Positions 5,147 to 60,956 of a stretch of DNA of 64,000 bases are shown here, one piece after another. The translations under genes were made by a program, and so were the position numbers. The DNA lies in NCBI RefSeq assembly GCF_963855985.1, contig NC_087109.1, positions 8,700,001 to 8,764,000 of the forward strand, given 5' to 3'. Origin of the DNA: Ostrinia nubilalis. Lineage: Eukaryota > Arthropoda > Insecta > Lepidoptera > Crambidae. The stretch's first letter is position 1; each line of letters begins with the position of its first letter. The notes under the pieces are model-generated. The model was not told the DNA's origin, made no database searches, and saw only the letters and a list, made by a program, of their open reading frames with translations.

Positions 5147-8100
5147 CTAACAGAAATACGGGTTAGAATACATGGAATAAAATTTTTGTCTTTTCTTTTA
5201 AAGTTGTTGGTAGTTGACATCGTCTCTATCAATTGACATTTTATGGCGCAGATACACTATGTGCGAACTTGATCGAACATAATGTCAACTGTAGTCCGGT
5301 CCCTGAGCACGTAGAATTTTGTCCAATAACCCCAAGCTACCCATCCTTATCGCTCGCGCGTAATTATATTGCTGTTGCACTCGCACACTCACTGCTGCCG
5401 CCCGTCGCACAGTCGCGACAGCAATATAATTACGCGCGAGGGCTAAAGATAGGTAGCTTGGGGTCATTGGACAAAATTCTACGTGCTCCGCGACCAGACT
5501 TTACCTACATATATCTTATATTTCATATTTAAAAGTTCCCTTATAACGAATGAGTTTATTTTGAAAGATTTTTTTTTAATTTGCTATTTGACAGCTGTTT
5601 TCTGAAACATTAATTATGTGTCTTAATTTCTAAATGTGATTTGGCGGTAGATTGTGCAGTAATGGATGGATGAATGAACTTAAACAAAACTTTTTAGTGG
5701 AAACAAATTAATAAATAAAGGTCATTCACACGAGTGCTGTTAGGGAAATAAGCATAACACCTTTAGTTTAAAAAAGTAGCATCAGTATAACATCTGTCCA
5801 TCCCTTTCACTCATAGCTAAACACAGCAAAGAGCGACAGAGATAGACAGATGAGACTATACCTACAGATCACACCATGAGCTAGATAACACATTTTAGCG
5901 ATAAAGTCAACCAACGCTTTTAATTAGAGCTTGATTTAACTGACTTAGCTATTGTACTTTTAATTTCATAAGCTCGTAGTGTGGACTGCTTTTCTATAAG
6001 AAAAAAAACCATCATTTAAGAAACATCTAAATTGTCTTCATAGGTAAAAAAAATTGAACCTACGGGTAAGTGGTAGCGAGGGTACAACAAAAAAAGTATA
6101 ACAACTAAGAATATAGGCTTTTTGATGTTCTTGCATGATACTCATGAAGTGTATTGGTGTCACGTTTGATTTCAATTTACTTTCAACATTTTAAAGTTTA
6201 AATTCAGATAATGGCAAAGAAAAGGCAACCTGCAGAGCTACAATGCGTGCCACAATAAAATATCGTAGTATTATATCGATTTTTTGGTGTTATCATCTAA
6301 AATCGACAATATTTTATCGTTGGCGCGCACTTTAGCCCTTCTGCGCGGCTTTTTTAACACTGTGAATTAGCCCATTTATTGTCCCGAAGTAGTGCCAGAT
6401 TAAAGTAATACTGGGACGTGTAAAAGCGCTTTTTAAAAGGTTATGTGCAGAAAACTTTGTTTTAAGCTAATAAATAAATATCTTAACTTATGGTCTCTCA
6501 GCATTTAAGCAATCAAAATCAAACGTAACACCAAAGCGTGGTTAGTACAGAAAGGTGAGCATTACTTGCGCGTGCGCCGCTTGTCTACTACTGCGCCTCA
6601 GTTAGCTACATGTGCGGGCGCGGGCCGCGTTGCTGCTGCTGTTGTTGTTGTTGCTAGAACGACGAGGCAGCTGTATAGGGTTACTCCGAAAAACGTTAAG
6701 TTTCGGATGTCACCATCTCTCTCAGTGAGAAGGCACACGGTCATTTTGCCGTATCACTGTACACATAGTATGCAGCGCCGCACGGCATTGTCTCGCTCAA
6801 TCGAAATGCGGTGTGCCTGCGGTGCGTCGCCGGAACGCGCCGTTTGGCATATCATTGGTTATTATATGCAGAACGCCGCAGCGACATCGCTCCGGCGCCG
6901 CGCCGCGACCGCACCGCACCGTGTGGCTTCTCCCTCACGCAAAGCAAGATGCCAGTATGAGCGACAGTGACAAAGAGAGCCGAAACTACGTACAGCGTTT
7001 CGGAATAGCCCTATTCAGACCGTGTTCGCATGAAGGGCAGGTGGAGCATAGATAAAGGATTGATAGTCCGCGACAGTGATTTAAAAAAAAATCCTACTAA
7101 TATTATAAACGCGAAAGTTTGTGTGGATGTTTGTTACTCTTTCACGCAAAAACTACTGAACGGATTTTGACGAAACTTTACAGTATTATTATTTATAACC
7201 CGGAATAACATATAGGCTATACTTTATGACGATCTGTGACAAACTAAATAGTTTTATTTTAAATAAAAATACTGCCTTTGCCGAGGGTTGGTAGTTCGAA
7301 TCCCATCGCTACTGGACTATTGTGGTGAATCCACTCGTAGCACAAGCACATTTTAGCTCAGCTCGAGGGCTCAACAAGAGTATTTATTAGTAATTTATAT
7401 TACACAAATGTTCTTTTAGAAAAGGGGTAGTTTTGATGTGACAATATGTGTTTTCAGAAATGCGTAAGTCCATTGGCGTTGGTGCAGGCTATATCTAGCC
7501 CTAATGGGTAGGTAAGGAAAAGCACAGGGCTGTGACTGTGAGAAAGCGAGTTATAAATGCTACTTCTCTATGTATGCATCGTATACTTCATCGGAACACG
7601 GTCTGTTACCCTGTTTCACAAACGCCAATCATCCGTGAGCACGTAGAATTTTGTCCAATGACCCCTAGCTAGCTACCCATCCTTATTGCTCGCGCGTAAT
7701 TATATTGCTGTCGCGACTGTGCGACTGGCACCCGCAGTGAGTGTGCGAGCGCGATAGCAACATAATTACGCGCGAGCGATAAGGATGGGTAGCTAGGGGT
7801 CATTGGACAAAATTCTACGTGCTCACGGACAGACTATAGTTACTTTTTTCGTTAAATTCGATTGGCGGGTCGAAACCGAGTTATAAATAATTTGCTCGGT
7901 GTGATTTAAGCTGTGAGCGTGTTAAGGAGCTGTGGGCAAAGCATGTTAAGAAACAGATTAGGTTAAAACATAAAGATAAAGAGTATAACATCGACGTAAC
8001 AAAAGACATTGATTTTGAACCATTGGGCGCTTGGAAAACTGCGTAATGTAGTTAGTTTGTTACTTGTCATTTACATTCGTCAATTATTTTTCGTTTATTC

Positions 8101-11100
8101 AAATTACGCGTTTTATAATTAGATACATATGTATATCTTTTGTTTTTTCGATGCTCATAAACTAGTTTATACAGAATTAAATTAAATTTTAGTTATATTG
8201 CTGATTGTACAAAATAAAATTACTTGTAATGTTAAGTACAAATTTTTAAATTCTGTTTAAACATAGTTTACTTCACAATAAATAAAAACCAACACATTAA
8301 ATTAAGATTTTTTAAAAATAATTTCAATAATATGTTAATCAAAATAAATAGGTTTGTTAATAAAATTGCAGCTATAAAATAACCTTGGCTGGTGAAAAAA
8401 AGAGAAAGCCAGATAGAGAAAATGTGAGTGACTTGCAGTTATTGACTATGATGCAAGAAGAGTACATTGCTGTGCACTGATGGAAGTTTAAGACTATTTA
8501 TGAGAAAAAAAAGGATACAATGAAGTGGATGTGTTTGAGAAAAGTGCATGGATTTTACCTGACTCGATGTTGTCCAGAAATAGTAGAAATGTAAGCTATT
8601 ATCTGGGACGTAATGTCCTGAAAAAGCTTAGCTAAACATGGGTCCCAGCAGTAGACATGTCTCGTACACTGATAAAAGGTACCGTCGTCGATTCCTGAAC
8701 CTCGGATCTGTGTCCTGATCTTTGGGTCTCTGTCTGGTTAGTTTTTACCTGTTGTAGAAGGTGCCAAAGGCCGGGAATTGAGGGCGGCTTGGAAAAGCAG
8801 ACTAGTTAAGCTGTAAGAGTACGCAACTTTTGTTGTTGTTGCACAACACAGAAGTTGCGAACCATTGGTAATAAGAGGTGGGAATAGTCCGGTAAATTGG
8901 TTGAAAGGCGTCGACACCCGGATTCCTCCTAGAGTCCCGGTTTGTAGAGCCTGATGCCTTAGTTCTGAGGCCTATTCCATAAATACCAGGTCCTGGTTCC
9001 TATTTTCTGGGTCCTTGTCCCTGGATTCTGGGGCTTTACACTAAGACCAGAGTCCTATGCCCGTTTTCACCATCAATCCCTAATTTTTAAGTTTCCCCCT
9101 ATGACCATAATTTTCCTGTTAATTGTTACTATAGGGGTCACTTAAAAATTAGGGATTGATGGTGAAAACGGGCATTAGTCTCTGGATCCTGGTCCAGGTC
9201 CTTTGTATCTAAGTCTAGCTCCCTAGGTCTTGGTTTCCGGCTAGCTATTGGTTACCTGCTGCAGCAAATGCCTGAGGCCGGTGTTGGAGGGCAGCATGGG
9301 CCGCAGCAGGCCGGCACTGGTCGAGGAGTGCCGTCACCCGGTCTGCTCCCTGCTCCTGTATGGCGGGTGTTACCTGGTGCCTGAGGCCAGGGTCGGATTG
9401 CATCATGGCGCGCATTGGACAAATCAATCTTCAACTGTGGAAATAGACTCGTACGGTAAAAGGTTGCCGACGTCTAGCCCCATACCTGGACCCTGGTCGT
9501 TGTGTCCAGCTTGTTGCGTCCTATTAGGTCCCTGCCCAAGTAACATTTTACTCCATTTAAGAGTAGACTAGTCGTTCACATGTACTCCACAAGCTGTGTA
9601 TGTCAGCTGTATACGAGCTGTATAGCTTGCTATAATGCTTTTATAGAACCAGTTTGGGCACAAATTAGACAGCCTTAAGTTCACTATGGCTGTACATTAG
9701 CAGTATAATAGCATTATAATAGCAGTTTAAGTAGTAACATCGGACTTAAGGCTGACTTACGGCACTATATGGGACGCATTGTGAACCATACAACGTACGT
9801 GAGTGTAATAAAGAGTAACAAGTGGCTAAATGCACAGCTTTCAAAGTTATAAAGTCCGACAAAAGTACTCCAATGCTACATAAAGTTCACGTGTGTCCTA
9901 AATTATTTCCACATTTTAATATTAGTTTGGTATTTGTACGTGAGTGCTAAGAGGGAAACAACTCGGGCGGATAATCATTTATGCAAATAATAACACGGGT
10001 TTTAAATACTTAATAATGTTAATGCCATTGGGAATGCAACTTTATCGTGAAATGTATACATATTTACAGCTAAAATATTTACGCGCCTCTGTAAAAACGC
10101 GATATTCATTTTAAAATATTTAAATCTGGCTGAGAGGAAATCTACAATTTTCAGTTTTTGATATTGTATTGGCATTATAATTATATTACGGTAATTAATT
10201 ATAACATGAAACCAAAACTCAATCGCTCTATCTGCAAATTTTGTAATAAATCTGCATTAATTTTGGAGATTTATTTGGTAAATATTTTAGGTTATGTAGA
10301 ACAAAATGGTGGAAATGAAATACGGCTATGTGAACTGTTATAACTCCGATTTAATGCGGTGAGCGTATATTAGGTTCACATGTGTTCTGTTAGAATGCTG
10401 TTATCTATATGAAGTTCCACATTTGTACCACTACAGCGCTAATGTCTATAAATTTATTCTAATGTGAACTTATGTACAGCTTTAAGATGTGCCTAGTTCA
10501 GGTCAATTGTGTATCTTTAATTCTTTCAAATACTGAAATTTTAGAGATCCGCAATAAAAATTTTAATGTCCGTTAAATCGCCTAGCCCAGCTACTAATAG
10601 TCAAGTATGAATACCTAAAGCATCAGACGGTAGTGTTCCTGGTTTAAATTCGTTTATTATGCCTGACAATTTATTCAAAGCGGAATGAGGAATACGATTT
10701 TCAATAGCCCATGTTCTTATTTTTTTGCGAAAGGTTAAATAAATAATTGTCCAAATCAAAATTGTATTCACTATCACTAGAACTGCAATCATCACACTCT
10801 GATATCTGTATATTTTGAAGGGAACTTTCAGGTTCAGGCATAATATTTTCCTCTGCATCATGTACAGAACCACCATGAACAACTAAAAACAGGCTTGGGG
10901 AAAAGTGTAATAGAATATCACATTCACATTCATGTTCAGCTTAAAGCAAATAAGAGTAGTACTTGTGGACAAATAAACTGCTATTGATGTTAATGGACAA
11001 CACATATAGTCCTTTTAACAGCCTACAGTGCACATGCGAACCATTGAAACACTTTTGTACAGATAGTAAAAAAAGGTTATTTAATTATCACAAACAAGTC

Positions 11101-14100
11101 CTACTACAGCTACTAGCTGTATAACAGTCTAAAACAAGTAAACATAACAGCCTTTGGCTTTATAAATGACCACGTGTGTTCTATTAAAATGCTAGCTCTA
11201 TAACATCGTACAAGTAGGCCGTTAAACAGCGATTGCCGTATCTCTACCCTCCTATAATGCTCTTAGTCAGACGGCTGACTAAAGGATAGTTGTTAGAGTA
11301 TTATAACACCAACAATCGTATAAAAGTATAACTCTACACTAGTCTACACTCCTATAAGTCCCTTAGACAGGTATAGGTGTAATTAATTGCAATAATACAG
11401 CTTATACATCACGAGTGAACTGTACTAATGCTTTAAGTACACATTGGAACTAAATGTGAACTCTTAAATGGAGTAAAATGCTACTTGGGTGGTTCCTGGC
11501 TAAAGTCTGTTCGCCGAGAGTTGATAAAAAAAAATATCAGAGGTTCTAAACTCATTATAAATTGCGGCCCGCTAATTATTTTTGTCGATATAATGAAAAA
11601 GTTGGTAGATTATTTGGCCTGGCCTTTTTTTTTGGCCTGGATTCTCGGCTCGGTTACAATTTAATTTTGGACTACAATTTATAAGAATGTTCTAAAAATA
11701 CGAATTATATATCAAAATCTACTAAACGATTTCGCACTACTAAATCATCGTTCTCTTTGCCTCAAATCTACCATAAAAGTAGAAATCTACTAAAAGTGGT
11801 CACGCAGCTGTGGCCGGGGCGCTTGACGACAGCTGCGTGGCTCGTACCATGGTACTCAGTGCGCGTTGTGACAAACGACGTCCGCCATACAGAATGCGAT
11901 AATTAAGCGACAGTCGCTATTGCAAGACATTTCATATTTATCAACTCTCGGCGAACAGACTTTAGAAGGTGGCAAAGGCCTGGAACGAAGGTCAGCAAGG
12001 GTCAGCAAACTGGTTAAGTTCCAACGGCCTCCGCAAAAACTCACTAATTTCTCCTTGAGTCTTGGTTCGTAGGAGTTGGTCTCTCGAACCTGGGTCCTTG
12101 GTTTTGGTCCCTAACACCTGGATCAATAGTCCTTTGCCCGTTTTCACCATAAATCCCTAATTTTTAAGTGACCCCTATGGTAACACATGACAGGAATTTT
12201 GTTCTCAAAGAGGTCACTTAAAAATTAGGAATTGATGGTGAAAACGGGCACTAGTCTCAAACCTGGGTGCTAGTCTCTAGATCTTTGGACCTGGGTCTTA
12301 GTTCTTATGTTCTTCCTGGGTCCTTGGTCTTCGCTCCTAGGTCTTAGCTCCATTCCTAGACCCCGGTCCCTGTGTTCTGATCTTTGAGTCTTTGTCAGTT
12401 TAGAGTTACCTGTTTTAGAAGATGGTAAAGGCCTGGAACGGAGGGCAGCAGACTGGTTCAGTTGCAACGGCCCCCGCCAATACCCATTCATTCCTATTTG
12501 AGTCGGTCCGTGGGAGCTGGTTCCTCTAACCCTTCTTTTTAGATCTTTGCACCGAGCTCCTAAGTCCCTGTTCTTCCTGGTACCTGGCTAGCTATTGGTT
12601 ACCTGCTGCAGCAGGTGCCTGAGGCCGGGGTTGGAGGGCAGCATGGGCCGCAGCAGGCGCGGCTGGTGCTGTGCGCCGCCGCGTAACTGCTGCTGTAGCT
12701 GCTGCTGCAGTTGATGCTTGCGTTGCTCCTGCAAACGGTAAGGTAACTGAGATTTAATCTTCATCTTCAAAGGCTCAGGGCGCCTGTTGCATTAAGTGGG
12801 AGCTGGGTACGCGATAGAACAGCCAAGATAACCCTTTCGCGTAAATGCGCAGTGGCAGGGTTAAGGACAGAACAAGTGATCTGGCGGTTATAAACATAAC
12901 ATGAGAAGATAATTAAGAGAAAAACACAATTACAAGAACAAAAAAAAACCTTTCAATAGTCAGAGACAGACAGACAGCTTTAGTATGTATGACAAGCATT
13001 GGGAGAGTACAGATGATGGTCGAATAAGATCTTTATGGCTGGTGAAACCATCAGCAACAGGAGTAGACTATGTCCATCTGGAATTGGACTATTCTCGCAC
13101 TTACCGTAGATGTCGTAAGAGGTAACTAGGAGACAAACATGCGAACATCAAATGGGGAGTGTAAGCACAATCCTCTGGTAAATTATAGAGTTGTTTTCCT
13201 GCCAGTGGAGACTAAAGGACCCTTCAAACTGAGGCGTGAGAAGGCCCTGGAGAGGCGCCACTACAGCGCTTACCCTTGCTTCTAATATGAAGGTGCCCTA
13301 AACAACCTGGTCATAATATCATAATTCGTCTCAGCATCAGCCCATGTATTGTCCCGAAGTGGTGGTAGCGCAAGCTATATTTGTGATGCCTATAAGGACC
13401 CAGGAAAGGGTCTGCATACTGCATAAAATCTTAAGACTCTAGCTATTTAATCAGCTCACCTCCAGCTGCTTGTAATGCTGCTCTTGCTGATGATGATGGA
13501 AACATCAAATGAAGAGTGCAAGCCCGATCCACTGGTAAATTATAAAGAGTTGTGCTCCTGCAGTGGAGACTAAGGTGCACCTGCAAAGGCCCAAACGACC
13601 TGGTGATAGTGACGTAACAATACGTCACCAGCTCACCTCAAGCTGCTTGTAGTGCTGCTCCTGCTGCTGGGCCGCGTGCAGGTGCTGCATGATGTCCATC
13701 TGCGACTTGAACTGCTGCTGGTGCGCCGCCTCCAAGCTCTGCTGGAGGTGCTGGATCACCTCCAGCTGCATACACAGCCTTGGGAGTGGCGAGTGGAGGC
13801 CTAATTGGAGACTGAATGATCTGATGATGATCTAATGAGATCTTCATGACTGGTGAGACCATCAGCAACAGGAGTAGACTATGTCCGTCTGGATTTGGAC
13901 CATACCCACACGTAAAGTCCGGTCGCCGAGCAGATCAATTCAATTCAATTTCAAAATATCTTTATTTCGTAAAATAATGTTACATTAAAACAGTTCTAGT
14001 GTACATTTTTAATCCTAGGCTGTTATAAAAATTAACATTTAACTGTTTTTAAGCTAATTCGCTTGTTAAAAACTTATGAAATATACATTTTATCTATATT

Positions 14101-17100
14101 TACGAATTGTAAACTGTATTAAGAATTTATTTATAACAATAAAGCAGAGCCGAGCAGATCGAATTTCGTCCAATGACCCCACGCTACCCGACCGAATAAT
14201 TATATTGCTGTCATGCTCGCACACTCACTGCGGCCGCCCGTCGCACAGTCGCGACAGCATAATTACGCGCGAACGAGAAGGATGGGTAGTTTTGGGTCAT
14301 TGGTCGAAATTCTATCAGCTCAGCGACCGGACTTTAGTAGATGTCGTAAGACGCAACTTGGGAAGAAATATGCGAACATCAAGTGGGTAGAGAGTTGTCC
14401 TCCTGCAGTGGAGACTATGGGCGTCTTCAGCTTTATCGCGCTTCTAATTTGAAGGCGCAACGACCTGGTGATAATGACGTAACAATGTTTCATCGACGAC
14501 ATCGTAAAGGTAGCAGGGAAGCGCTGGACGCAGGCCGCTACCAATCGATCAACGTGGAAAGCATTGGGGGAGGCCTATGTTCAGCAGTGGACGTCCTATG
14601 GCTGAAATTATGATGATGATGATGATGAATGTTTCATCAGCTCACCTCCAGCTGCTTATAGTGCTGCTCCTGCTGCTGGGCCGCGTGCAGGTGCTGCATG
14701 ATGTCCATCTGCGACTTGAACTGCTGCTGGTGCGCCGCCTCCAAGCTCTGCTGGAGGTGCTGGATCACCTCCAGCTGCATACACAGCCTTGGGAGTGGCG
14801 AGTGGAGGCCAAATGTAGTGGAGACTGAATGATCTGATGATGATCGGATAAGATCTTCAAGGCTGGTGAGACCATCAGTAATAGGAGTAGACTATGTCCA
14901 TCTAGAATTGAACCATTCCCACACTTGCCACGGATGTCGTAAGAAGCAACTTGGGGAAAGACATGCGAACATCAAGTGGGTATAGATCCGTTTCATCCAC
15001 GAAGACGCGCCCCACCAATTTTTGGTCGAGGGAAGCGCGGGGTGCGGGGAGTTTGATCCGAGCAATCCGAGCGTCATTATTGTAGTGTGCGTGTTCACTC
15101 ATGGATAATTTAGCGTGTACCGATAAAACTCAAACATTAGCGGAAAAATGTTTGGGCGCGTCTTCGTGATGAAACGATCTATAGAGTTGTCCTGCTGCAG
15201 TGGAGACTATGGGCGTCTTCAGCTTTCTCGCGATTCTAATATGAAGGCGCAACGACCTGGTGATAATGACGTAACAATTTTTCATCGACGACATCGTAAA
15301 GGTAGCAGGTAAGCGCTGGACGCAGGCCGCTACCAATCCATCAACGTGGAAAGCATTGGGGGAGGCCTATGTTCAGCAGTGGACGTCCTATGGCTAAAAT
15401 TATGATGAGGAGAGTATTTTCACGAGCTGGATGTTACCTCCAGCTGCTTGTAGTGCTGCTCCTGATCTCTTCTAATGAGATCTTCATGGCTGGTGAGACC
15501 ATCAGTAACAGGAGTAGACTATGTCCATCTGGATTTGGACCATACCCACACGTAAAGTCCGGTCGCCGAGCAGATATAATTTCGTCCAATGACCCCAAGC
15601 TACCCATCCTAATCGCTCACGAGTAAGCTGTCTGTCGTGCTCGCACACTCACTGCGGTCGCCCGTCGCAGAGTCGCGACAGCAATATAATTACGCGCGAG
15701 CGATAAGGATGGGTAGCTTGGGGTCATTGGACGAAATTCTATCTGCTCGGCGACCGGACTTTAGTAGATGTAAGATGTGGTGTCAATGTAAGACTGATGT
15801 CAAGATGTCAGACAACTACGCCGTATCAAAGCAACTTGGGGAGAAATTATGCGTACTTCAAGTGGGTAGAGAGTGGACCTCCTGGAGTGGAGACTATGGG
15901 CGTCTTCACTTCGAATTTGAAGGCGCAGCGACCTTGTGATAATGACGTAACAATACGTCACCAGCTCACCTCCAGCTGCTTGTAGTGCTGCTCCTGCTGC
16001 TGGGCCGCGTGCAGGTGCTGCATGATGTCCATCTGCGACTTGAACTGCTGCTGGTGCGCCGCCTCCAAGCTCTGCTGGAGGTGCTGGATCACCACCAGCT
16101 GCATACACAGCCTTGGGAGTGGCGAGTGGAGGCCTAATTGGAGACTGAATGATCTGATGATGATCTAAATAGATCTTCATGGCTGGTGAGACCATCAGCA
16201 ACAGGAGTAGACTATGTCCATCTGGATTTGGACCATACCCACACTTACCACGGATGTCGTAAGAAGCAACTTGGAGAGAAATATGCGAACATCAAGTGGG
16301 TATAGATCGCTTCATCCACGAAGACGTGCCCTACCAATTTTTGGTCGATGGAAGCGCGGGGCGGGAGTTTGATCCGAGCAATCCGAGCGTCATTATTGTA
16401 GTGTGCGTGTGCACTCATGGATAATTTAGCATGTACCGATAACACTCAAACATTAGTGGAAGAATGGTGGGGCGCGTCTTCGTGATGAAACGATCTATAG
16501 AGAGTTGTCCTGCTGCAGTGGAGACTATGGGCATCTTCAGCTTTCTCGCGCTTCTAATATGAAGGCGCAACGACCTGGTGATAATGACGTAACAATGTTT
16601 CATCGACGACATCGTAAAGGTAGCAGGGAAGCGCTGGACGCAGGCCGCTACCAATCGATCAACGTGGAAAGCATTGGGGGAGGCCTATGTTCAGCAGTGG
16701 ACGTCCTATGGCTGAAATGATGATGATGATGATGAATGTTTCATCAGCTCACCTCCAGCTGCTTGTAGTGCTGCTCCTGCTGCTGGGCCGCGTGCAGGTG
16801 CTGCATGATGTCCATCTGCGACTTGAACTGCTGCTGGTGCGCCGCCTCCAAGCTCTGCTGGAGGTGCTGGATCACCTCCAGCTGCATACACAGCCTTGGG
16901 AGTGGCGAGTGGAGGCCTAATTGGAGACTGAATGATCTGATGATGATCTAATGAGGTCTTCATGGCTGGCGAAACTATCAGCAACAGGAGTAGACTATAT
17001 CCATCTGGATTTGGACCATACCCACACGTAAAGTCCGGTCGCCGAGCAGATAGAATTTCGTTCAATGACCCCAAGCTACCCATCCTAATCGCTCGCGAGT

Positions 17101-20100
17101 GAGCTGTCTGTCGTGCTCGCACGCTCACTGCGGGCGCCTGTCGCACAGTCGCGACGGCAATATAATTTCGCGCGAGCGATAAGGATGGGTAGCTAGGGGT
17201 CATTGGACGAAATTCTATCTGCTCGGCGACCGAACTTTAGTAGATGTCGTAAGACGCAACTTGGGGAGAAATATGCGAACATCAAGTGGGTAGAGAGTTG
17301 TCCTCCTGCAGAGACTATGGACGTCTTCAACTTTCTCGCGCTTCTAATTTGAAGGCGCAACGACCTGGTGATAATGACGTAACAATGTTTCATCGACGAC
17401 ATCGTAAAGGTAGCAGGGAAGCGCTGGACGCAGGCCGCTACCAATCGATAAACGTGGAAAACATTGGGGGAGGCCTATGTTCAGCAGTGGACGTCCTATG
17501 GCTGAAATGATGATGATGATGATGAATGTTTCACCAGCTCACCTCCAGCTGCTTGTAGTGCTGCTCCTGCTGCTGGGCCGCGTGCAGGTGCTGCATGATG
17601 TCCATCTGCGACTTGAACTGCTGCTGGTGCGCCGCCTCCAAGCTCTGCTGGAGGTGCTGTATCTTCTCCAGGTTCTGCTGGCGAGCCGCGTCCAGCCCGT
17701 CAAGCTGCGCCACCGGCCTCGGGCCCTTGCCGGCAACTTGTTGCACCTGGCCGCCCATTCCTCCTCCTATCATCATGCCCTGGGGAGGTTTGAGAGATTT
17801 AGGATATGCGATTGGGTTGGATGTGAAAATAAGGCAGTGCCTCAGCAGTGTGTAGGAAAGATCTAAGTCGCAAAACGTCAAATACTGATAGATAAGAAAT
17901 TTTTATTCAAATAGTGGCACATGAGTTACCTTCGGATACATCTGAGTTTGAATGACATTAATTTTTTTTTTTTTTTTTTTTTTTATGTGATAGGAGGCAA
18001 ACGAGCAAACGGATCACCTGATGGTAAGTGATTACCGTCGCCCATAGACACCCGCAGACCCAGGGGCGTTACAGGTGCGTTGCCGGCCTTTAAGGTAAAG
18101 ATACGCTCTCCTCTTGAAAGCTTGCAGGTCGTATCCGTCCGGAAACACCGCAGACGACAGTCCATTCCACAGTTTGGTTGTACGGGGCAGAAAGTTTAAT
18201 TAAATGCGATATTACACACGTTCAGTACTTAAGTTTCGAGCTTTAGCAGCGGCTTCGTGTGTTACGATTACGACCTACGACTTCACGCATTACTTGCAGT
18301 TTTATAATGATACCTACGATTTCACGTGTTACTCGCAACATTGTGTTATCTACGACTTCGTGTGTTACCTTGGACTTCGCACTTAATCTGCAGCCCTGTT
18401 ACCTGCGACTTCACGCGTTACCTGCAGCCCCGTTAATTACCTGCGACTTCACGCGTTACCTACATCCTCGTGCGTTACCTCCGGGCTCGTGTTTTACCTG
18501 CGGCCTTGTGTGTTACATCAGACTTCGTGTGTCACCTACGACTTCGCGCGTTACTTACAGCCTCGTGCGTTACCTCCAGGCTTGTGTTTCACCTGCAGCC
18601 TTGTGTGTTACATCAGACTTCGCGCGTTACCTGCTGGTGCTGCGGGTGCTGATGCTGCGTGCTCATGCCCTGCGCCGGCAGCTGCTGCAGCGGCGCCATG
18701 CTGCCGCCCGCCATGGAGCCGTTATACCTGCGGCCTCGTGTGTTACATCAGACTTCGTGTGTTACATCAGACTTCGTGTTACCTGCTGGTGCTGATGCTG
18801 CGTGCTCATGCCCTGCGCCGGCAGTTGCTGCAGCGGCGCCATGCTGCCGCCCGCTATGGAGCCGTTATACCTGCGTCCTCGTGTGTTACATCAGACTTCG
18901 TGTGTTACATCAGACTTCGCGCGTTACCTGCTGGTGCTGCGGGTGCTGATGCTGCGTGCTCATGCCCTGCGCCGGCAGCTGCTGCAGCGGCGCCATGCTG
19001 CCGCCCGCCATGGAGCCGTTATACCTGCGGCCTTGTGTGTTACATCAGACTTCGTGTGTTACATCAGACTTCGCGCGTTACCTGCTGGTGCTGCGGGTGC
19101 TGATGCTGCGTGCTCATGCCCTGCGCCGGCAGCTGCTGCAGCGGCGCCATGCTGCCGCCCGCCATGGAGCCGTTATACCTGCGGCCTCGTGTGTTACATC
19201 AGACTTCGTGTGTTACATCAGACTTCGCGCGTTACCTGCTGGTGCTGCGGGTGCTGATGCTGCGTGCTCATGCCCTGCGCCGGCAGCTGCTGCAGCGGCG
19301 CCATGCTGCCGCCCGCCATGGAGCCGTTATACCTGCGGCCTCGTGTGTTACATCAGACTTCGTGTGTTACATCAGACTTCGCGCGTTACCTGCTGGTGCT
19401 GCGGGTGCTGATGCTGCGTGCTCATGCCCTGCGCCGGCAGCTGCTGCAGCGGCGCCATGCTGCCGCCCGCCATGGAGCCGTTATACCTGCGGCCTCGTGT
19501 GTTACATCAGACTTCGTGTGTTACATCAGACTTCGCGCGTTACCTGCTGGTGCTGCGGGTGCTGATGCTGCGTGCTCATGCCCTGCGCCGGCAGCTGCTG
19601 CAGCGGCGCCATGCTGCCGCCCGCCATGGAGCCGTTATACCTGCGGCCTCGTGTGTTACATCAGACTTCGTGTGTTACATCAGACTTCGCGCGTTACCTG
19701 CTGGTGCTGCGGGTGCTGATGCTGCGTGCTCATGCCCTGCGCCGGCAGCTGCTGCAGCGGCGCCATGCTGCCGCCCGCCATGGAGCCGTTATACCTGCGG
19801 CCTCGTGTGTTACATCAGACTTCGTGTGTTACATCAGACTTCGCGCGTTACCTGCTGGTGCTGCGGGTGCTGATGCTGCGTGCTCATGCCCTGCGCCGGC
19901 AGCTGCTGCAGCGGCGCCATGCTGCCGCCCGCCATGGAGCCGTTATACCTGCGGCCTCGTGTGTTACATCAGACTTCGTGTGTTACATCAGACTTCGCGC
20001 GTTACCTGCTGGTGCTGCGGGTGCTGATGCTGCGTGCTCATGCCCTGCGCCGGCAGCTGCTGCAGCGGCGCCATGCTGCCGCCCGCCATGGAGCCGTTAT

Positions 20101-35100: not shown

Positions 35101-38100
35101 ATCAGCTTATCTCACCAGCGAGTCCACGAGCGAGTTGTGAGTGACTTATGGAAAGAAGAAAAAATACGCGTGGTGCGCTAGATGGCGACACAGTAGCTTC
35201 TTGTAGCAGCGAGCCCTATCGCAACGGCACAGTGCCGATCACTGACGTATGTAAACGAAACGGTGCTCGACGCTGAGACAAGTTAAATCTAAATGTACAG
35301 TGTGTCCGAGCATGTAGTGATCAAACTTTAAAGGCGTAATTTATGGACAATTTTATCGATGAAAATACTTCGAATTTGCGGTTTGACCCATTTCTCGCAA
35401 AATTACAAGGATTTAAGTTATTAATTTTTAGTTTTCACCTCTTCCTTCAAAAACAAGTGAAAGCGTGAGTAACTTAACACTAATAAGCAAATATTTTATA
35501 TCATGCGATAGCCAATAAAATTACTTTTAGTAGAAGTATAAAACAGACACAAGTTTCGTACATTTTAAGGTTTGATTAATTAGAAAAAACATGACTTTTT
35601 CACTTCTTTTTCAGTTATTTTCCAATACAAGAAAAACCAGGTCGTTAAAGTATGTTTTATTTGCATTTCATTGTTAGTATTTGAGCTATTCTACAAAACG
35701 AATGTAAAATTAGCCTACGTCTATTAGTTTCGAAGCTATTGTTGAACAAAGATACCCATTCTCAGCGATTTCATAGCGCGGCTAGTCATGTGGTCGGAAT
35801 AGGTTGTGTGATTCTTTCAGGCATTGCATTTTTGCGTGTTAACAGCTTACAGCATACTTAGTTAAGCTGTAAAAATTATAAGCTAAGCTGTATGAAACGT
35901 TACTCACGGGTACACATCCCCCTGTATGTCTGGCACGGGCGGCGGCGCGGGGCTTGGCGGTCGCTCCTTCAAGCTGTATCCGCGAAGCAGGACTAGGTGG
36001 CGCGGGTCCTGCCACCAAGCACATAAAACATTTCAAATAGGTCTAAAGCCCGGTCGCCGAGCACGTAGAATTTCGTCCAATAACCCCAAGCTACCCATCC
36101 TTATCGCTTGCGCGTAATTATGTTGTTGTCGCGCTCGCACACTAACTGCGGCCGCCCGTCTTACAGTCGCGACAGCAATATAATTACACGCGAGCAATAA
36201 GGATGGGTAGCTTGGGGTCATTGGACGAAATTCTACGTGGAAATCTTACAAAATGGTTCTTAAAATTCTAACGCCCGTATTCACAAACATTACTATGAGG
36301 TCTCACAGTCGCGTGGACACACATGGTTACCATAACCATTCACAGAGCTCTATTCAACGCTATGCGTTCGATTTGCTGCTTCACTTAGGCAAGCATCGTT
36401 TGTGAATACGGGCGAAACTTCTGTCATGATTAAGTAACAGTAGTCTCCAATGGCCTACCTTAGCATAGTTCCTTTGTTGCGCCGCTAATAGTTCTCCCCC
36501 GGCTAACTCGTATAGCGCCGTTAGTGCTGTGATGCGCTTGGACGCCGCTATCGATAGGTGTACGCCGCGTTCAGCTAACAGACGCGCGGCTTGCTCGACT
36601 GTGGCTGGCGCCCCTGGAGAAATAATTGAGGATTGTCATTTATTTATTTGTTTAAAGACTATTGCACACACATAAAAATGATAAGTACAAAAAGGCGAGC
36701 TTAATGCCGTTAGGTTACGATAAAGAATAGCGTCGTTAGTGCTGTGATGCGCTTGGACGCTATCGATAAGTGTGCGCCGCGTTCGGCTAACAGACGCGCG
36801 ACTTGCTCGACTGTGGCTGGCGCCCCTAAAGAAATAATTGAGAATTGTCGTTAGGTTACAATAGACAATAGCGTCGTTAGTGCTGTGATGTGCTTGTGTT
36901 AATAAGTGTACCCCGCGTTCAGCTAACAGACGCGCGGCTTGCTCGACTGTGGCTGGCGCCCCTGGAGAAATTATACGTCATTAACGCCCGTATTCACAAA
37001 AATTACTATAAGATTTCACAGTGCACGTGGACGCACAGGGTGACATACGAACCAATCACAGAGCTGTATTCAACGCTGTGCGTTCGATTTGCTGCTTCAT
37101 TTAAGCAAGCATCGTTTGTGAATACGGGCGTAAGTTACGACAAGCGATAACGTATAGCGCTGTAGTGCTGTGATGCGCTTGGACGCTATCGATAAGTGTA
37201 CGCCGCGTTCGGCTAACAGACATGCGGTTTGCTCGACTGTTACTGGCGCCCCTGGAGAAATAATTAAGGATTGTCGTTAGGTTACGATAAAGAATAGCGC
37301 CGTTAGTGCTGTCGATCGAGTAGTGAGTGACGTATGGAAAGAAGGAAAAAATATGCGTGTGGTGCGCTAGATGGCGACACAGTAGCTTCTTGTAGCAGCC
37401 CTATCGCATCGGCACAGTGCCGATCACTGACGTATGTAAACGAAATGGTGCTCGACTCTGAGACAGGTAAATTACACCATATTGTTGAAGAAATTTTTTC
37501 ATTTCTTTTAGTACGTATTCCGTGCTATCGATTCTCTACATGGCCTGCAATTCGAACTGTATTCTCTACACGATAAGAACTAGTTTCCACGAACCTGGAG
37601 GCACCAGCCCGCCGGCATACGCCGAGTACGGCGGCGAGCAACACAGCAGCAGGATGTGCAGAGGTATGTCGGTGCGGCCGAGCTCGTCCAAGCACGCCAG
37701 AGCCGTTGACAGGGCCTCTGTCACACACGCTCGATTTTCAGCGTGTCCCGTAATGAACCTACGATTACAGAAATAATTGTTAGGTCAAGTCATTAATATA
37801 CAGGGTGATTTGAATTCAGGGGTTATAGCACAGGTCATTTGCAACATTTCTGTATATGGACACCAAAATGAGATAACAAGAAAAGACAATATATTAAAAC
37901 TAGATACATTTCAAATTTTATGCCTTTTTTTGGCAGTGAAATATAACTGTAGTTTAACTAAATTCATGTTTACAATTCAGAATCTACAATACATTTACTA
38001 TTCTTTAATTAGCAACAATAGACCAACAAAAATGGAGATGGGCAGGTCACATGATCCGGGACCCAGAAGAAAAATGGTGTAAAAGCGTCACTGACTGGTA

Positions 38101-45497: not shown

Positions 45498-45716
45498 CTA
45501 GCTTTCCGCCCGCGGCTTCGCGCGCGTGTACTACATTATCTACATATTTTAAGGAACCCTATTTTTTTCCAAAATAAAATTTAGCCTATGTTACTCGTGG
45601 ATAATGTAGCTTTCGAATGGTGAAAGATTTTTTAAAAACGGTCCAGTAGTTTTTGAGCCTATTCATTACAACCAAACAAACAAACAAAGTTTTCCTCTTT
45701 ATAATATTAGTGTAGA
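45498..45716 (+). mobile_element. Lepidopteran short interspersed repeat (GCTTTCCGCCCGCGG family)
   Basis: Starts AACTAGCTTTCCGCCCGCGG and ends TTATAATATTAGTGTAGAT, with CCAGTAGTTTTTGAGCC and AACCAAACAAACAAACAAAG between. An inverted copy lies at 50530-50755 and fragments at 7085-7260 and 56868-56952. Confidence 0.8.
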
Positions 45717-46702
45717 TTAAATATGCAATATTCATCTGTGGGTCATTTCAAAAAAATTGCATTTTGCATTTTGTCTAGGGGATTTAGGCTTAATAACAAA
45801 AAAACCTACTCGTAACCGTAACACAAGCATATTTAGCTTACCGCAGGGTATTTCAAGAAAAAAAAAGCAGAATTATATCCATAGGAGATTTTAATCTCAC
45901 ACGCATTAAACAACGTGCTCCTTTTGATTTCCTGGAATTCTAGGATATTAATAAATAAGACAACTTCAAATCGATTTTTTTTTTGTTTGAAAAAATATTT
46001 CATACAAAATAATTCGCCATAGTTAAATAACCGTGTAAAAACACTGACGTAAAAAATATCAATATCATATTATTTTTACTGAAATAAAATGATGTACATA
46101 CATACAAAAAGATAAGATTACTGGATGATAATTCAAAACTCTTAAGATTGATGATATTTTGGAAAATGTACTTACGACATTTAAAAAATTAACAGGAAAA
46201 CAAAATGGAGCACGTTGTATTATTATCGTTTTTTTGGACTGTCTCAATTTATCGATAATGAAACAATCGCAATCATATCACTAATTTGTCACTAGACAAA
46301 TTAAAAAACATATCACTATTATTTTACCGTTTTACCATCCAATTTATTTTTTAGGTATATTTTTACGATATAATTATTGCACCAATTAAATGCAACCTTG
46401 CAACGAATTACAATGTCATTTGTGATTTCAATTCGTCAATACTAATAATCACGGTGCAGTTTAAAATAGTTTTGATAGATTAATATTAATTTTGACAGCC
46501 TTTAAAATAGACACACATGATCGCAAAATAATTTGTGCTGGCTGTTTGTCAGTTCTTGCCAAAAATAAACTAATTTTCTTATCGCATTTAGCACAACAGC
46601 AACGTTCCTGATAATCTTTGAAAGATTCGAGATTCGAGTTATCAGCTCCCGAGTTGTTCATTGAAATTGGCTCTCAAAAATCAATATCGTAATAACATAA
46701 AT

Positions 46703-46856
46703 ATGGAAGTTTCTCTACGCTCTTTGCGATTGATCAACCGGCTTTTTCGAAAACCTATTGGAATAACTCGAAGATACAAGAGCGTGAACTATGCAGCTGT
46801 AAAAGAAGATGTGAACACCGATTTGCTGAATTCATTCAACCGAGACACCAAGGATG
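46703..46856 (+). CDS. ACSF3: ACSF3 exon 1 (mitochondrial targeting region)
   Basis: 51 codons plus one base: [20 protein letters not shown], then [10 protein letters not shown] and an acidic [14 protein letters not shown]. Basic and hydroxylated residues alternate as in matrix presequences. The donor is GATG|GTGGGT. Confidence 0.85.
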
Positions 46857-49427
46857 GTGGGTGATGTAACTTATTTTAAGTTGACATAACCTTTAGCCAA
46901 ATTCAACCTTGAAAAAGTGATATGTAATAGGACTATGTATTTAATTATTATCAATAATGTATTTGGCGTTAGACCTTGCTATTGAAGATCTTAAAACTGA
47001 CCAATGACCAATAATATTAATGCATAAGTGTTTTTGATAATAATTGTTCTTATCTTCACTCCAATAGCAATAAATAAGTGCTTATTTCCTTATCATATCA
47101 AGTATGTATGAACATAATAAAGACAATAATATTTATAGTCTTTATGTGACTGCATAATTTCGCTTTTCATGTTGAAAATTGTGAAATTCTATTTTTTAAG
47201 CTTCTCCTCAATTTTTGTTTTGGTATCCAACAGGAAAAAATATTTACAACAGCACACCAGACTAATTTTTGTTGCAAATTCGCCTCTATTACAACTAAGG
47301 CGGTTATCACACTGCTCCGCCACGGAGCGCGTGATTTCATATAAAAAAACCCGCGCGCGGACGCGTTGTCAGTGTGTTGTGGCGCGCGTGTTTTCTATAC
47401 AAACTGAGGTACTTGCATACAATGATTAAATCTGTCGTCCCGCGCTCCGCGGCGGAGTGCGGCGCAGTGTGATAACCGCCTAAATAAGAGACCTCAGTGC
47501 TAGCTTCAAGTGCTGTCTGTATTTGTGCAATAATTTCACTGCTACGAGGAAAGACTAATAAATTGATGCATAAGATGAAATGTTACCTGCTTTATAGTGA
47601 AAAATTTATTCAAAGCTCCTTTTTATTGGATTACTATATGTGGCCCTGACTTCATATTTTATGCTTGAAAATAATTTTACCTGTTTTATAGTCAAAATTT
47701 TATTTAAAACTCCTTTTTATTGGATGACTAGCTGTGCTCATGACTTTGTATGCTCGAAAATAGTTTGATTAATATTTTCCGTTTTTGCTAAATTTTCTTT
47801 ACTGCTCCACCCCTTTTGGATGTAGAGTGATATTATAATCTAAAGATTTCCTCGATGGGCTATCCAACTGTACTGCAGTTTCTGAGATTAGTGTGTTCAA
47901 GCAAATTCAGCTTAAGATTCAAATTACTACTAAATAAAATACTATTATTTTCAGGCGGTGCGGTACCAGTGTTCCGACGAGCTCTCCTGTTTCCAACTCG
48001 TGTTGCGTTACAAGACGAGGTGGGCATCTACACTTACGCAGGATTGCACCAGGCAGCCACATCCCTCAGCAATGAGATTGCCGCACAACTCGGTAAGAAT
48101 TATGTAAAATATGGCTTCTGAAGATTTGTACTATCTCTAAATGTTATCATGATAATACATACTACATCAATCAAGATAATTTGCATCTATGTCATAAACA
48201 TAGATATTATTATGTTGCAAATTCCAACTGAAAGTCAACATAAACTCTTGAATGATGGGAATACCAAAGGTAAATAAAAAAAATATTATTGGACCCAATT
48301 TTACTTGGGTTTGTTCATGACTGGGCAAGTGGGCATACTGAATACTATTAATATGATTGTATTGTATTATTTATTAATGACTTTTCTTCAACAGTTGGGG
48401 AGTCAGAGCGTACGATTGCGTACATGTGCAACAATGATGCGTCACACGTCATCGTCCAGTGGGCCATATGGATGACAGGAAATATTGGTATGTCAAATTG
48501 ACCGTCTAAAACTCTAAACTGTTTACACTAACGCCCGAATTCGCAAACATTACTATGAGGTCTTACAGTGCGCGTGGACGCACAGGGTGACACACGAACC
48601 AATCACAGAGCTCTATTCAACGCTGTGCGTTCGATTTACTGCTTCACTTAAGCAAGCATCGTTGTTGAATACGGGTGTCAGGCTAAACCACCCAAGAGCA
48701 GTATTTTTGTATTTGTATATCAATTTCCAAACAATTACAGCTGTTTATATCGAAATCTGTATTCAACGGGTGCGTGACAGTTTATATAAGTTTATATGAT
48801 ATAAATTCATTTCAATAACGTTCATATTGTATAATAAACGTATGTTATAATAACACTTGATATAATTTTTTAACATATAATGTTTACTTCATATAATAAA
48901 TCATTTCTAATAATGTCATTTCAGATACCAATCAAAACGCATAAAGACATTTGATATAAACCTTACTTATTCTAAGACTCATTTGATGTAATTTTGTTTG
49001 ATATAAATAATATTTCATATAACCATTACATAAAATAAATATTATTTGTTATAACGACTATTTGGTATACTCTTTAATTGATATAATTTCTGATAGATAT
49101 AACTTTTAGTATGTTCTTCTTTAACTTGACTTATAAATGACTTTAGTGACAAAAACGAATCGCCGTAAAACCGACTCCACGTAGTCTTGTCTGCCCTACC
49201 CCTAGAGTGTAATTTAGAAGCGCGTAGGCACGGAGGGGCGAGGCGGCCCGCGGGCTGAGGAGCAGGTGGCGAAAGCCATCTGCGACGATTAGCACGCGAG
49301 GGACCGCCAGAGCCCCGAAGTGCCGGAGCCGTGACAGAAGTCTCAAGGTTTTAGTCAAATTTGCATGCTGCATGCCTGCTTGCTTGCTTGCCTGCTTGCT
49401 TGCTTGCTTGCCTGCTTGCTTGCTTGC

Positions 49428-49459
<32 letters not shown>

Positions 49460-52400
49460 CTGCTTGCTTGCTTGCTAGCTTGCTTGCCTGCTTGCTTGCC
49501 TGCATGCTAGCTTGCTTGCTCGCTTGCTTGCTTGCTCGTTTGCTTGCTTGCTTGCTGCATGCAATGCTTATTATAACAATTATTATTGTTATATGATTTA
49601 AGTTTTATAGGAAAAGAATTTTATCTCATTTGATTGTTCGACACTTTATTTTTATATGATTTGAATGTTATTTGTTTTAAATTTTATACATTGTAAGTTT
49701 TATAGAAAATATTCATTATATCAAACCATTTTATATCAGTTAAAAGTTATTTGTCTTAAAATTATTCGTTTTAAAATTATATTATTCGTTTATTATAGTA
49801 AATAATTATTATATTAAATGATTTTATATAATTTGATGTTATATCCTCTAAGTATTATATGATATGTAGTTATATCATACATTACACACCCGTATTCAAC
49901 ATGTGATTTGCCTTTCATATTCTTTAAAATTTTATTTATTTACTTCCCCAGCTGTACCTTTAACGCCAATCCACCCGCCAGCCATGCTCAAATACTACCT
50001 AGGCGATTCCGGTGCCAGCCTAGCTATCTGCACCCCAGAATACGAAAAACTACTCCGTCCCATAACCCTGGAACTGTCTAAACCTTTGCTGATCACTGGC
50101 AAAGACAAGGAAATAACAGCGCAGCTGTACCAACCGAATAGCGCGTTTCTAAAGTCCAAATCAGAGGATACGTTGATCGATGTGGGCAAGACGAACGCTT
50201 GGTACGGGAGCGCTGATGCTTTCATTATTTATACAAGTGGTAAGAATGGCTTTTTTTGTGTAGATCATCATAGCTTTAAAGAATATCGATACTTTTAGTT
50301 TTTTTTTCCTTTATGGTAATTAGTACTTAATTTGGTATGGTATTTCTAACACTTTTGTCGCATGCGACGTGCTAATTTTATTGTCACGTTCAAAACTGTT
50401 AAAGTATTCCATAGCACATTAATATTCGATACAGAAGTAAGGTCTGTTACTGATAAACTGATATCAATATTTGATTATCAACATCAACGCCGCTTCCATG
50501 GCAATGACAATCCTCTTTTGAAAGTCAATATCTACACTAATATTCTATAGAGGAAAACTTTGTTTGTTTGTTTGGTTGTAATGAATAGGCTCAAAAACTA
50601 CTGGACCGTTTTTAAAAATTATTTCACCATTCGAAAGCTACATTAACCATGAGTAACATAGGCTATATTTTATTTTGGAAAAAAAATAGGGTTCCGTAAA
50701 ATATTTGGGATTTTCGGAGTCCACGCGGGCGAAGCCGCTGGCGGAAAGCTAGTTTATAATATAATATATTGCAGGTACAACAAGCAAGCCCAAAGGCGTG
50801 GTGTGGACTCACAGCATGCTAGCAACACAGATAGCCTCGTTACACTCCGCCTGGCAATACTCCGGCGATGACGTAGTATTACATTCGCTGCCATTACATC
50901 ACATACACGGACAACTAAACTCTCTAAACGCGTCATTAGCTGCAGGAGCAAGGTAAGGACATATGGAATTATTTATCCCTTTCACTCGTAGCAGCAGCCC
51001 CAATTGGATGATAGAGACAGGTAGCCTCGCTCATCTCCGCCTGGCAATACTCCGGCGATGACGAAGTATTACATACATGGACAGCTCAACTCTTTAAACC
51101 AGTGGTTCTTAACCGGTGGTCCGCGAACCACTGGTGGTCGCTGGAGGCATTCCAAGTGGTCCACAAAGTGCACTTGCACACCTTGGTCAAAACCACTTTT
51201 TTAACAGATTTTTGCAGTCATACTGGTTTTGACCGATTATGAAGTGGTCCCTGACAAGATAGAAATTTGGTAATGTGGTCCCTCATGACTTAAAGGTTAA
51301 GAACCACTGCTTTAAACGCACCATTAGCTGCAGGAGCTAGGTGAGTGAGGCTGAGACTACCTCGGATCTATCTGTCTCTTTCACCCGTAGTAGCAGGCCC
51401 AATTGGATGAGAGAGACAGCATGCTCCGTAATATCCCGGCGAAGACGTAGTATTACATTCTTTGCCACTGCATCACATACATGGACAACTTAACTCTTTA
51501 AACGCCTCTCTGGCAGCTGGAGCCAGGTATGTGGAGCTAATTATTTTATGTATATCTTTTTCACTCATGCCAGCAGCTCTAACAACTTAGTGAGACAGAT
51601 ATATTACCTCTTGTAATAGTACTCTGGCGTGGTATTACAATAGCAGCAGCAGCCTGACTTTGAACGCATCTCTGTTAAAATTCCAGCCCTAGTGTTAGAT
51701 AAGACCATGTTGAACTTATTTCTCGTTTTCACTGAGTCAATAGCCCAATGATTCCCTTTGTTTTAAACATTTTTAGCTAACTAAATTCACTTGCCTACTG
51801 CTTTTTTTTTATTTCAAAACAAAAGTATTATTATTATTGGTTTTTGGGCCTTCATTTCTCGACCAGATTTGATCTATTGTGGCAGCCCTTGTGTTTAGAG
51901 TTCACTGCTTAGTCCCGTTGAGTCTATAAATTTCCAGATTCTTTGGAGCGTGATATCTGCTATCTCATCCGGTTGCATGATGTGTCGCTCGAGATGGATA
52001 AAAACCGAACTAGGTTATCACGGCTAAAATTTGTCTTGGAATTATTGATTGACTACCCAATGGACGTTATCATTTATCTTGCAGAATCCGTATGCTACCT
52101 CAATTCGTATCTCACAACGTGTGGGCTCGCCTACTCGGCATGGGCGAGCGCGAAGAAGCCAAAGTGACTGTATTCCACGGCGTGCCGGCAATGTACGCAC
52201 GCCTGCTCGCCGACCACGAGCGAATGTTCGCGGCCGCGCGCACGGCTGACTATGTTCGCCACACGCTCGCGGCGCGCATGCGACTTATGTGCGCTGGTTC
52301 AGCGCCGCTGCCTGATACACTGGCCAATAAATGGGAAGAGGTCAGTATAGTTATTTATTTTCTTTTACATGAGCGTATTTGAAAGGCGATTATCACACTG

Positions 52401-60738: not shown

Positions 60739-60956
60739 ATAGTCTGGTCTGTGAGCACGTAGAATTTTGTCCAATGACCCCAAGCTACCCATCCTTTGCG
60801 CTCGCGCGTAATTATGTTTTGTTGCTGTCGCGCTCGCACACTCACTGCGGGCGCCCGTCGCACAGTCGCGACAGCAATATAATTACGCGCGAGCGATAAG
60901 GATGGGTAGCTTGGGGTCATTGGACAAAATTCTACGTGCTCACAGACCGGGCTTTA
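60739..60956. mobile_element. Hairpin MITE family 1, copy i
   Basis: TAGTCTGGTCTGTGAGCACG and the inverse CGTGCTCACAGACCGGGC; one of the best preserved hairpins. Confidence 0.85.

Follow-up and report, generated by a model that had tools for sequence, protein, structure and literature searches.

Why do partial copies of an exon, each carrying at most one of its splice sites, lie in the adjoining introns of two unrelated genes? The question is raised by MED25 and ACSF3 within a 64,000-nucleotide stretch of the Ostrinia nubilalis genome (contig NC_087109.1 of assembly GCF_963855985.1, positions 8,700,001 to 8,764,000 of the forward strand; the whole stretch is called the window below). An initial annotation counted six duplications spanning a donor (5' splice site) and one spanning an acceptor (3' splice site) in these genes, and proposed either a mechanism tied to exon-intron borders, for example R-loops or template switching during transcription, or selection for spare splice sites. 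The arrays are real, they recur in other genes, and nearly all of them span donors. We assign a probability of about 0.55 to the reading that short tandem duplication is frequent and is favoured at exon ends that are repetitive or rich in guanine plus cytosine (GC), and that selection spares donor-side copies and removes acceptor-side and whole-exon ones.

Exon-edge arrays in MED25 and ACSF3

Both gene models were built by hand from splice signals. MED25 occupies the minus strand as 14 exons in an open frame with Pfam matches to Med25_VWA (8.5e-56) and Med25 (6.7e-59); its predicted protein is 100% identical over 89% to Ostrinia furnacalis MED25 isoform X1, at least one residue differing by eye. 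ACSF3, on the plus strand, has 10 exons encoding 632 residues, and a protein search showed 100% identity over the full length to O. furnacalis ACSF3. All 24 exons were compared with the window by nucleotide BLAST (basic local alignment search tool; blastn, E up to 0.01, copies counted within 8 kb). Direct partial copies were found in the adjoining intron for seven exons (MED25 4, 6, 7, 11, 12 and 13; ACSF3 5), and none within 8 kb for the other 17. For six of the seven the copies are downstream and at least one includes the donor edge, some copies of exon 13 and of ACSF3 exon 5 not reaching it; MED25 exon 4 is the sole case in the window with copies placed upstream and including the acceptor edge. 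The annotated count of six and one was thus borne out. So was the statement that each founder adjoins its array and that its far side is uncopied, the opposite exon edge being in none of the copies seen by exon BLAST and in alignments of the window arrays. No exact inverted match of the donor junctions of exons 6, 7, 11 and 12 was present within MED25. Positions, units and donors are given in Table 1.

Counting the founder and allowing up to 2 mismatches, there were 34 junctions for exon 6, 24 for exon 11 and 8 for exon 7, and exon 12 had 6 exact GAG/GTGAGC sites. The exon-11 array runs into a 19-bp minisatellite with GT in 19 of 22 hand-aligned units. Four of the exon-12 copies hold the last 129 bp at 97-98% identity and two are shorter. 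For ACSF3 exon 5, positions 51008-51099 are interior pieces without a donor, 51310-51340 ends in TAG/GTGAGT and 51430-51526 in CAG/GTATGT. The last ACSF3 copies and those of exon 13 are decayed, and the decayed exon-6 copies gave masked alignment scores of 69, 51, 42 and 32 against a control maximum of 33. With 33 exon-6 units in a row identical and these others decayed, the copies do range from identical to nearly unrecognisable, as annotated, in agreement with a repeated process. A strict gradient with older copies more distal was abandoned, since in intron 13 divergence is greater in the nearest aligned copy (0.76) than in a distant one (0.82).

The exact copy number in the two near-perfect arrays (exons 6 and 11) may reflect consensus assembly, for exon 6 because of the 33 identical consecutive units. 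The same units are what could be said for treating the whole pattern as an assembly artefact, which we consider extremely improbable: in many arrays the copies have diverged, decayed or been interrupted by elements, and some of the same exons show repeats in proteins predicted for other species. The exon-edge arrays of the window are confirmed as real and not artefactual in kind.

Table 1. Founder exons, their copies and comparison duplications in the window (a slash in a motif marks the exon-intron border).
Feature	Positions	Strand	Basis
MED25 exon 4, founder (its array alone spans an acceptor)	36459..36613	-	open frame with that edge; exon BLAST
Exon-4 array: end of intron 3 with the first ~102 bp of exon 4, in three copies and one fragment	36705..37312	-	self-BLAST, exon BLAST
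MED25 exon 6, founder; donor CAG/GTGAGA	34577..34748	-	
Exon-6 array, donor-spanning 171-bp unit (last 90 bp of exon 6 + 81 bp intron)	28761..34576	-	Tandem Repeats Finder (TRF), exon BLAST
Decayed exon-6 copies; donor-like AAG/GTAAGT, CAG/GTGAGT, CAG/GTAACT, CAG/GCAAGT	28330..28760	-	
MED25 exon 7, founder; donor CAG/GTCAGT	27984..28145	-	
Exon-7 donor array: 148-167 bp units and two 89-bp donor-only segments	27043..27983	-	TRF and reading of sequence
MED25 exon 11, founder; donor CAG/GTAACG	22316..22434	-	
Exon-11 donor-spanning array, 154-bp unit (last 91 bp of exon 11 + 63 bp intron); ~23 extra units	18640..22315	-	TRF
19-bp minisatellite, donor-like (N)AG/GTAAC in most units	18238..18640	-	hand alignment
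MED25 exon 12, founder; donor GAG/GTGAGC	17543..17779	-	
Exon-12 donor copies, ~0.8-1.3 kb apart, palindromic elements embedded	13446..16881	-	self-BLAST, exon BLAST
MED25 exon 13, founder; donor CAG/GTAACC	12603..12728	-	
Decayed exon-13 donor copies near 12409, 9255, 9373 and 8748; transposon-like inserts between	8688..12531	-	self-BLAST, exon BLAST, masked alignment
ACSF3 exon 5, founder; donor AAG/GTAAGG	50775..50952	+	
ACSF3 exon-5 copies	51008..51526	+	self-BLAST, exon BLAST
Possible extra ACSF3 exon-5 copy, donor lost	51600..51695	+	by eye only; not recovered by exon BLAST
Mid-intron tandem duplication for comparison, 262 bp x2	38330..38858	.	
Mid-intron tandem duplication for comparison, 94 bp x2	47579..47766	.	
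Mid-intron tandem duplication for comparison, 141-143 bp x2, transposon-derived by look	22534..22825	.	

Mobile-looking sequence is interspersed with the arrays. A palindromic element of ~200 bp (GTAGAATTTTGTCCAATGACCCC ... TCGCTCGCGCGTAATTATATTGCTGTCGC) is repeated many times, also inside several exon-edge arrays (some sites seen by eye, others by self-BLAST): at 5300-5522, 7632-7858, about 14149-14338, 15565-15748, 17041-17240, 25140-25330, 36050-36250 and 60740-60960, and at loci L030 and L032 described below; within arrays it is a possible clock for array age. A palindromic element (CGCCCGTATTCACAAA...) recurs near or inside the exon-4 array at 36269-36420 and at 36982-37136, where it breaks the array, and also near 48530. 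In intron 13 an element of ~1.95 kb with inverted ends (CCCAAGTAACATTTTACTCCATTTAAGAG) lies, by eye, between decayed exon-13 copies at about 9540-11490. ACSF3 intron 3 holds a TTGC-type tetranucleotide repeat of ~49 units at 49361-49556.

Arrays in other genes and the comparison with chance

Outside the window 11 further arrays were found, in kinase, kinesin and sodium-channel genes and in one unnamed gene, and all of them span a donor, with GT donors and with exon parts that end before the acceptor. Twenty 10-kb tiles on 16 contigs, at hand-chosen round-number positions, contained 13 tandem families in 200 kb (adjacent copies, unit of at least 60 bp); tandem duplication is thus general in this genome, as our preferred reading supposes. 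Two of the 13 families span a donor: L018, at a voltage-gated sodium-channel exon (Na_trans_cytopl, 4.1e-23 for the exon and its neighbour exon), and L011, whose 81-bp unit includes 24 bp of an exon with no Pfam match.

Gene families were screened by exon-by-exon profile searches, neighbouring rows with overlapping profile ranges being selected and their DNA checked; only copies keeping enough exon to match are detected, so the counts are lower bounds. The kinesin screen (93 rows, all 111 candidates scored) gave six exons with arrays (L036-L041), probably belonging to five genes, all confirmed in DNA and with units of 126 to ~231 bp. At L041 (C18:1267780-1268500) the 141-bp unit decays into shorter units that retain CAG/GTCAGTAGAGAG, and distal donors there would add residues in frame. 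The kinase screen (138 rows, 125 of 666 candidates scored) gave at least three array loci, each confirmed in DNA: L029, PAK-like by reading of its sequence, with 181-182-bp steps and 8 donors in the piece; L030, with best PDB sequence matches to STK38, DMPK and ROCK1, 163/167-bp steps and 5 donors; and L032 (C1:1544500-1547200), with seven diverged intronic copies of a kinase exon that look like a duplicated three-unit higher-order repeat. These are three loci among the 13 listed kinase row pairs overlapping by at least 20 positions within 6 kb; judged from the listing alone, pairs on C7 and C11 look like neighbouring genes and C2:12384890 like a boundary overlap, and no repeats were seen in the DNA of a further candidate, L031.

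Two screens gave no arrays. In the AMP-binding screen (20 rows) there were no overlapping neighbours, and the absence of the window's own ACSF3 from the rows indicates low sensitivity; in the DEAD screen (52 rows) three pairs overlapping by at least 20 positions (L033-L035) were checked in DNA and none is an exon-edge array. At L035 (C15:10867600-10869300, 1442-1485 and 1594-1637) part of a DEAD-box exon is copied just downstream of it (44 bp, 86%), the copied part apparently not reaching the donor. An Ion_trans screen (95 rows) was unusable for the overlap test since the channels themselves repeat the domain.

A random-breakpoint model, with units placed at random and only intronic or one-junction outcomes kept, predicts that 13-21% of families span a junction and that donors and acceptors are hit 1:1. 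In the window, which was selected for showing the exon-edge pattern, 7 of 10 or 7 of 11 tandem families did so (P = 6e-5 to 3e-3). The ratio of donor to acceptor arrays was 17:1 in the genome (P 1.4e-4) and 11:0 outside the window (P 0.001), so that the repeated anchoring at exon edges noted in MED25 and ACSF3 extends to other genes with a strong donor bias.

Beyond the window, donor arrays were in excess of the background in the kinesin screen and in the pooled screens, and not significantly so in the tiles. The background of 1.1% expected per donor comes from the tile density (13 families in 200 kb) multiplied by an assumed 165 bp, and the denominators (kinesin 75, kinase 107, DEAD 42, AMP-binding 18) are approximate figures set by hand from the listings, the DEAD rows covering fewer than 150 positions coming to 39 on a later count. 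Arrays were present at 6 of ~75 kinesin exon matches (P 1.6e-4), at 3 or more of ~107 kinase matches (P 0.11, scoring incomplete), and at none of ~40 DEAD and 18 AMP-binding partial matches. Pooled, this is 9 of ~242 (P 0.001; P 0.036 when the background is taken at its upper 95% limit); acceptor arrays were found at none of the ~242 (P 0.07). Taken alone, the tiles are near the geometric expectation (P 0.06-0.15 for assumed donor numbers). The tiles, the empty DEAD and AMP-binding screens and the kinase figure by itself would all be expected if there were no enrichment, tandem duplications being common, those with exon sequence merely being the ones recognised, and MED25 being a hotspot found by looking. 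We regard this as improbable, since the kinesin and pooled counts stand above background and exon recognition alone does not predict 11:0.

Donor motifs, founder sequence and selection

The donor bias and the kinesin excess may instead represent a mutational mechanism tied to the donor (nascent RNA, U1-linked pausing, RNA-templated repair or template switching) that makes duplications preferentially there. Two observations on the copies point the same way. Similarity to the founder among 27 diverged copies was 0.83 in the exon flank, 0.92 at the donor and 0.48 just past it in the intron flank, with GT in all, in an ungapped comparison that is circular for the donor inasmuch as copies were chosen partly by donor motif; and the 19-bp minisatellite has a donor-like site in nearly every unit (T at +2 in 22/22, A at -1 in 20/21 and A at +4 in 20/22 of the hand-aligned units, non-donor columns reaching 11/12 and 18/21). 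Against such a mechanism, exon parts start at scattered exon positions (nucleotide 21 to 127) and intron parts vary (~19-81 bp in clear cases), as random breakpoints would give, and only 2 of the 13 tile families span a donor. Donor-anchored breakpoints were considered, the intron parts being short in clear cases, but a rough hand estimate gave no significant clustering. The coding strand of the largest array, that of exon 6, is C-rich (plus-strand GC skew of about +0.29 over 30-34 kb, the gene being on the minus strand), therefore R-loops are not favoured there. The junction-tied mechanism of the initial annotation is accordingly not required by these data, and we hold it possible but rather doubtful. 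We would say the same of its widest form, in which the 5' splice site of Lepidoptera would be a tandem-duplication hot spot through a transcription- or splicing-coupled process, thousands of introns would hold re-seeded arrays, and the spliceosome would routinely pick the first donor.

Selection for spare splice sites fared worse. Copies might be kept because they offer spare or decoy donors, or U1-binding sites that protect long introns, and strong donor motifs do persist in the decayed exon-6 copies; GT was in register in 28 of the 30 copies that were found by exon sequence alone and reach the exon end (6 further copies so found stop short of it). Each copied block, however, includes the donor, which is itself invariant in the founder; a young copy has its GT in any case, and 28/30 is not clearly above the expectation for the age of the copies. 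When the donor was masked, the outcome in the decayed regions of exons 6 and 13 was mixed: of 8 alignments, 3 had CAGGT there (one shifted), one had a GC site, and four had none or other sequence. Two of three internal GT sites in the exon-11 unit are GAT/GT, and one ACSF3 copy seems by eye to have no donor. Preferential donor conservation was dropped as proof of selection, the masked alignment, the 19-bp columns and the diverged copies not being decisive, and we think it quite unlikely that the copies are kept in this way.

The founder sequence does matter in the window, since copied exons are GC-richer and less complex: exons with copies have lower 5-mer complexity than those without (P 0.0005 for 24 exons, 0.0013 for MED25 only) and higher GC (P 0.017 and 0.02), a link that concerns window exons. 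Of the changes in copies of MED25 exons 4, 7, 12 and 13, 24 of 54 were synonymous (P 0.41 against 0.39, the share estimated by hand for a copy evolving neutrally beside an exon in which only synonymous changes occur; some copies are related and not independent). These substitutions fit neutral copies of a constrained exon.

The reading that we prefer joins a general mutational input to a selective filter. The genome would often make short tandem duplications, with units mostly of 80-230 bp, and more of them in sequence that is rich in GC or has internal repeats, which is true of many exon ends. Where a block extends from inside the exon across the donor, the first copy would remain the working exon end and the additions would fall in the intron; with the first, authentic donor still usable, the duplication would be nearly neutral and could persist. 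An acceptor-spanning block would place a false acceptor first and would mostly be removed, as would whole-exon or in-exon blocks, which would alter the protein. The founder, held constant by selection, would keep re-seeding the array with fresh copies, and older ones would decay or expand into minisatellites or higher-order arrays by unequal exchange. Such re-seeding from an unchanging exon would account for the presence of identical copies beside others that can hardly be recognised.

Use of the first donor is suggested by annotation. The annotated O. furnacalis proteins have no extra residues after MED25 exons 6, 7 and 11 and ACSF3 exon 5, which would fit splicing from the exon-proximal donor. 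Read-through would meet a stop within 60 nt past the donor in 15 of 17 arrays (frames assigned by hand). The public model of O. furnacalis MED25 isoform X1 ends in QLEVSW, which is read-through of an exon-12 donor, and lacks exons 13-14; the arrays may explain this ending.

Several points weigh against this combination of frequent duplication and selective filtering. Donor arrays appear to exceed the background in the pooled screens, which requires that GC or repeat content make duplication more frequent at exon ends; and the kinase exons L029, L030 and L032 are of ordinary 5-mer complexity (0.80-0.89). In vitro work suggests that the intron-proximal of two equal donors can win, in which case donor-side copies would be harmful. 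Two of the 17 arrays (L039 and L041) have no early in-frame stop, and the generalisation that every array soon meets a stop after its donor was dropped on their account. Substitutions at two loci are in synonymous excess: the seven partly related L032 copies have 108 synonymous to 37 non-synonymous changes, and the ratio is 15 to 2 in the ACSF3 copy at 51430-51526. Within the last 93 bp, L032 copies c1, c3, c4 and c7 depart from the exon almost solely in the third base of codons. The excess could mean that these copies were once alternative exons, or that the founder has converted them. As read by hand, a stop and a 5' deletion precede the ACSF3 copy, and stretches upstream of it resemble polypyrimidine tracts by eye.

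Other Lepidoptera and known boundary repeats

One hundred MED25 and ACSF3 proteins were taken by rank as lepidopteran, some species being present more than once, and 6 of them have an internal repeat of at least 12 residues. Four of the six repeat an exon end and stop, by eye, where the Ostrinia exon stops: predicted MED25 of Parnassius apollo (exon 7), of Spodoptera exigua (exon 6, 5 units of 15 residues, possibly in-exon; another S. exigua model has one) and of Leguminivora glycinivorella (exon 11), and predicted ACSF3 of Colias eurytheme (exon 7). Predicted MED25 of Papilio machaon repeats the whole of exon 4 with other sequence between, and the remaining protein (P0032) has a short charged repeat. 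Of the 140 remaining listed proteins, 3 contain repeats. These predicted proteins suggest intronic exon-end copies in other Lepidoptera, where exon-edge anchoring probably recurs, and such arrays may explain the repeated exon ends in public gene models of Parnassius, Spodoptera, Leguminivora, Colias and Papilio. No report of donor-edge arrays in Lepidoptera was recognised in searches of open-access literature, as judged from titles and abstract openings, which is not proof of absence. If a few percent of moth exons carry arrays of their own donor, as the pooled 9 of ~242 would imply, these are natural experiments on spliceosome choice among identical 5' splice sites. The arrays also illustrate how an exon under purifying selection can mark its adjoining introns on one side only and so promote the growth of repeats within genes.

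The arrays resemble several known systems. One is the minisatellite of human IFI6 (6-16/G1P3), which has a short unit of 12 bp. Turri, Cuin and Porter reportedly described multiple splice donor sites in this gene in 1995. As in IFI6, repeat units lie at an exon end, each with a 5' splice site motif, and a donor motif per unit was found at exons 6 and 11 (34 and 24 junctions) and at L029 and L030 (8 and 5 donors). Unlike that short-unit repeat of one gene, the Ostrinia arrays occur in about ten more genes besides the two of the window, and their units are mostly 81-231 bp with 24 to more than 200 bp of exon, with decay and higher-order repeats in addition. The IFI6 minisatellite is described as holding multiple splice donors, two downstream units serving as donors (PMC4526556).

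Tandem exon duplication, as in mutually exclusive exons, repeats whole exons with both splice sites beside their source. The likeness to the Ostrinia arrays is that exon sequence is repeated beside its source; the difference is that Ostrinia copies carry one edge only, acceptor and donor together being absent from the best copy of each of the 11 donor arrays aligned and from the copies of exon 4. The predicted Papilio machaon exon 4 is the exception. Tandem duplication of a splice-like site can also give rise to an intron, a process reportedly treated by Gao and Lynch in 2009. It shares with our arrays a local duplication that copies splice signals, but there a duplication within an exon creates an intron, whereas in Ostrinia introns are lengthened, the window arrays lying inside introns of the gene model. 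Intron gain of this kind is also described in the passages available from Lehmann et al. 2010 (PMC2891723).

In paralogs from human segmental duplications, internal tandem repeats that lie on exon-intron boundaries alter gene structure (De Grassi and Ciccarelli 2009, PMC2812944). There, as in Ostrinia, head-to-tail copies cross an exon-intron boundary. Those repeats vary between recent paralogs, with no donor bias or long arrays in the passages available from that paper. The Ostrinia arrays are thus related to known boundary minisatellites, and what is new is their scale, their recurrence and the 17:1 bias toward donors.

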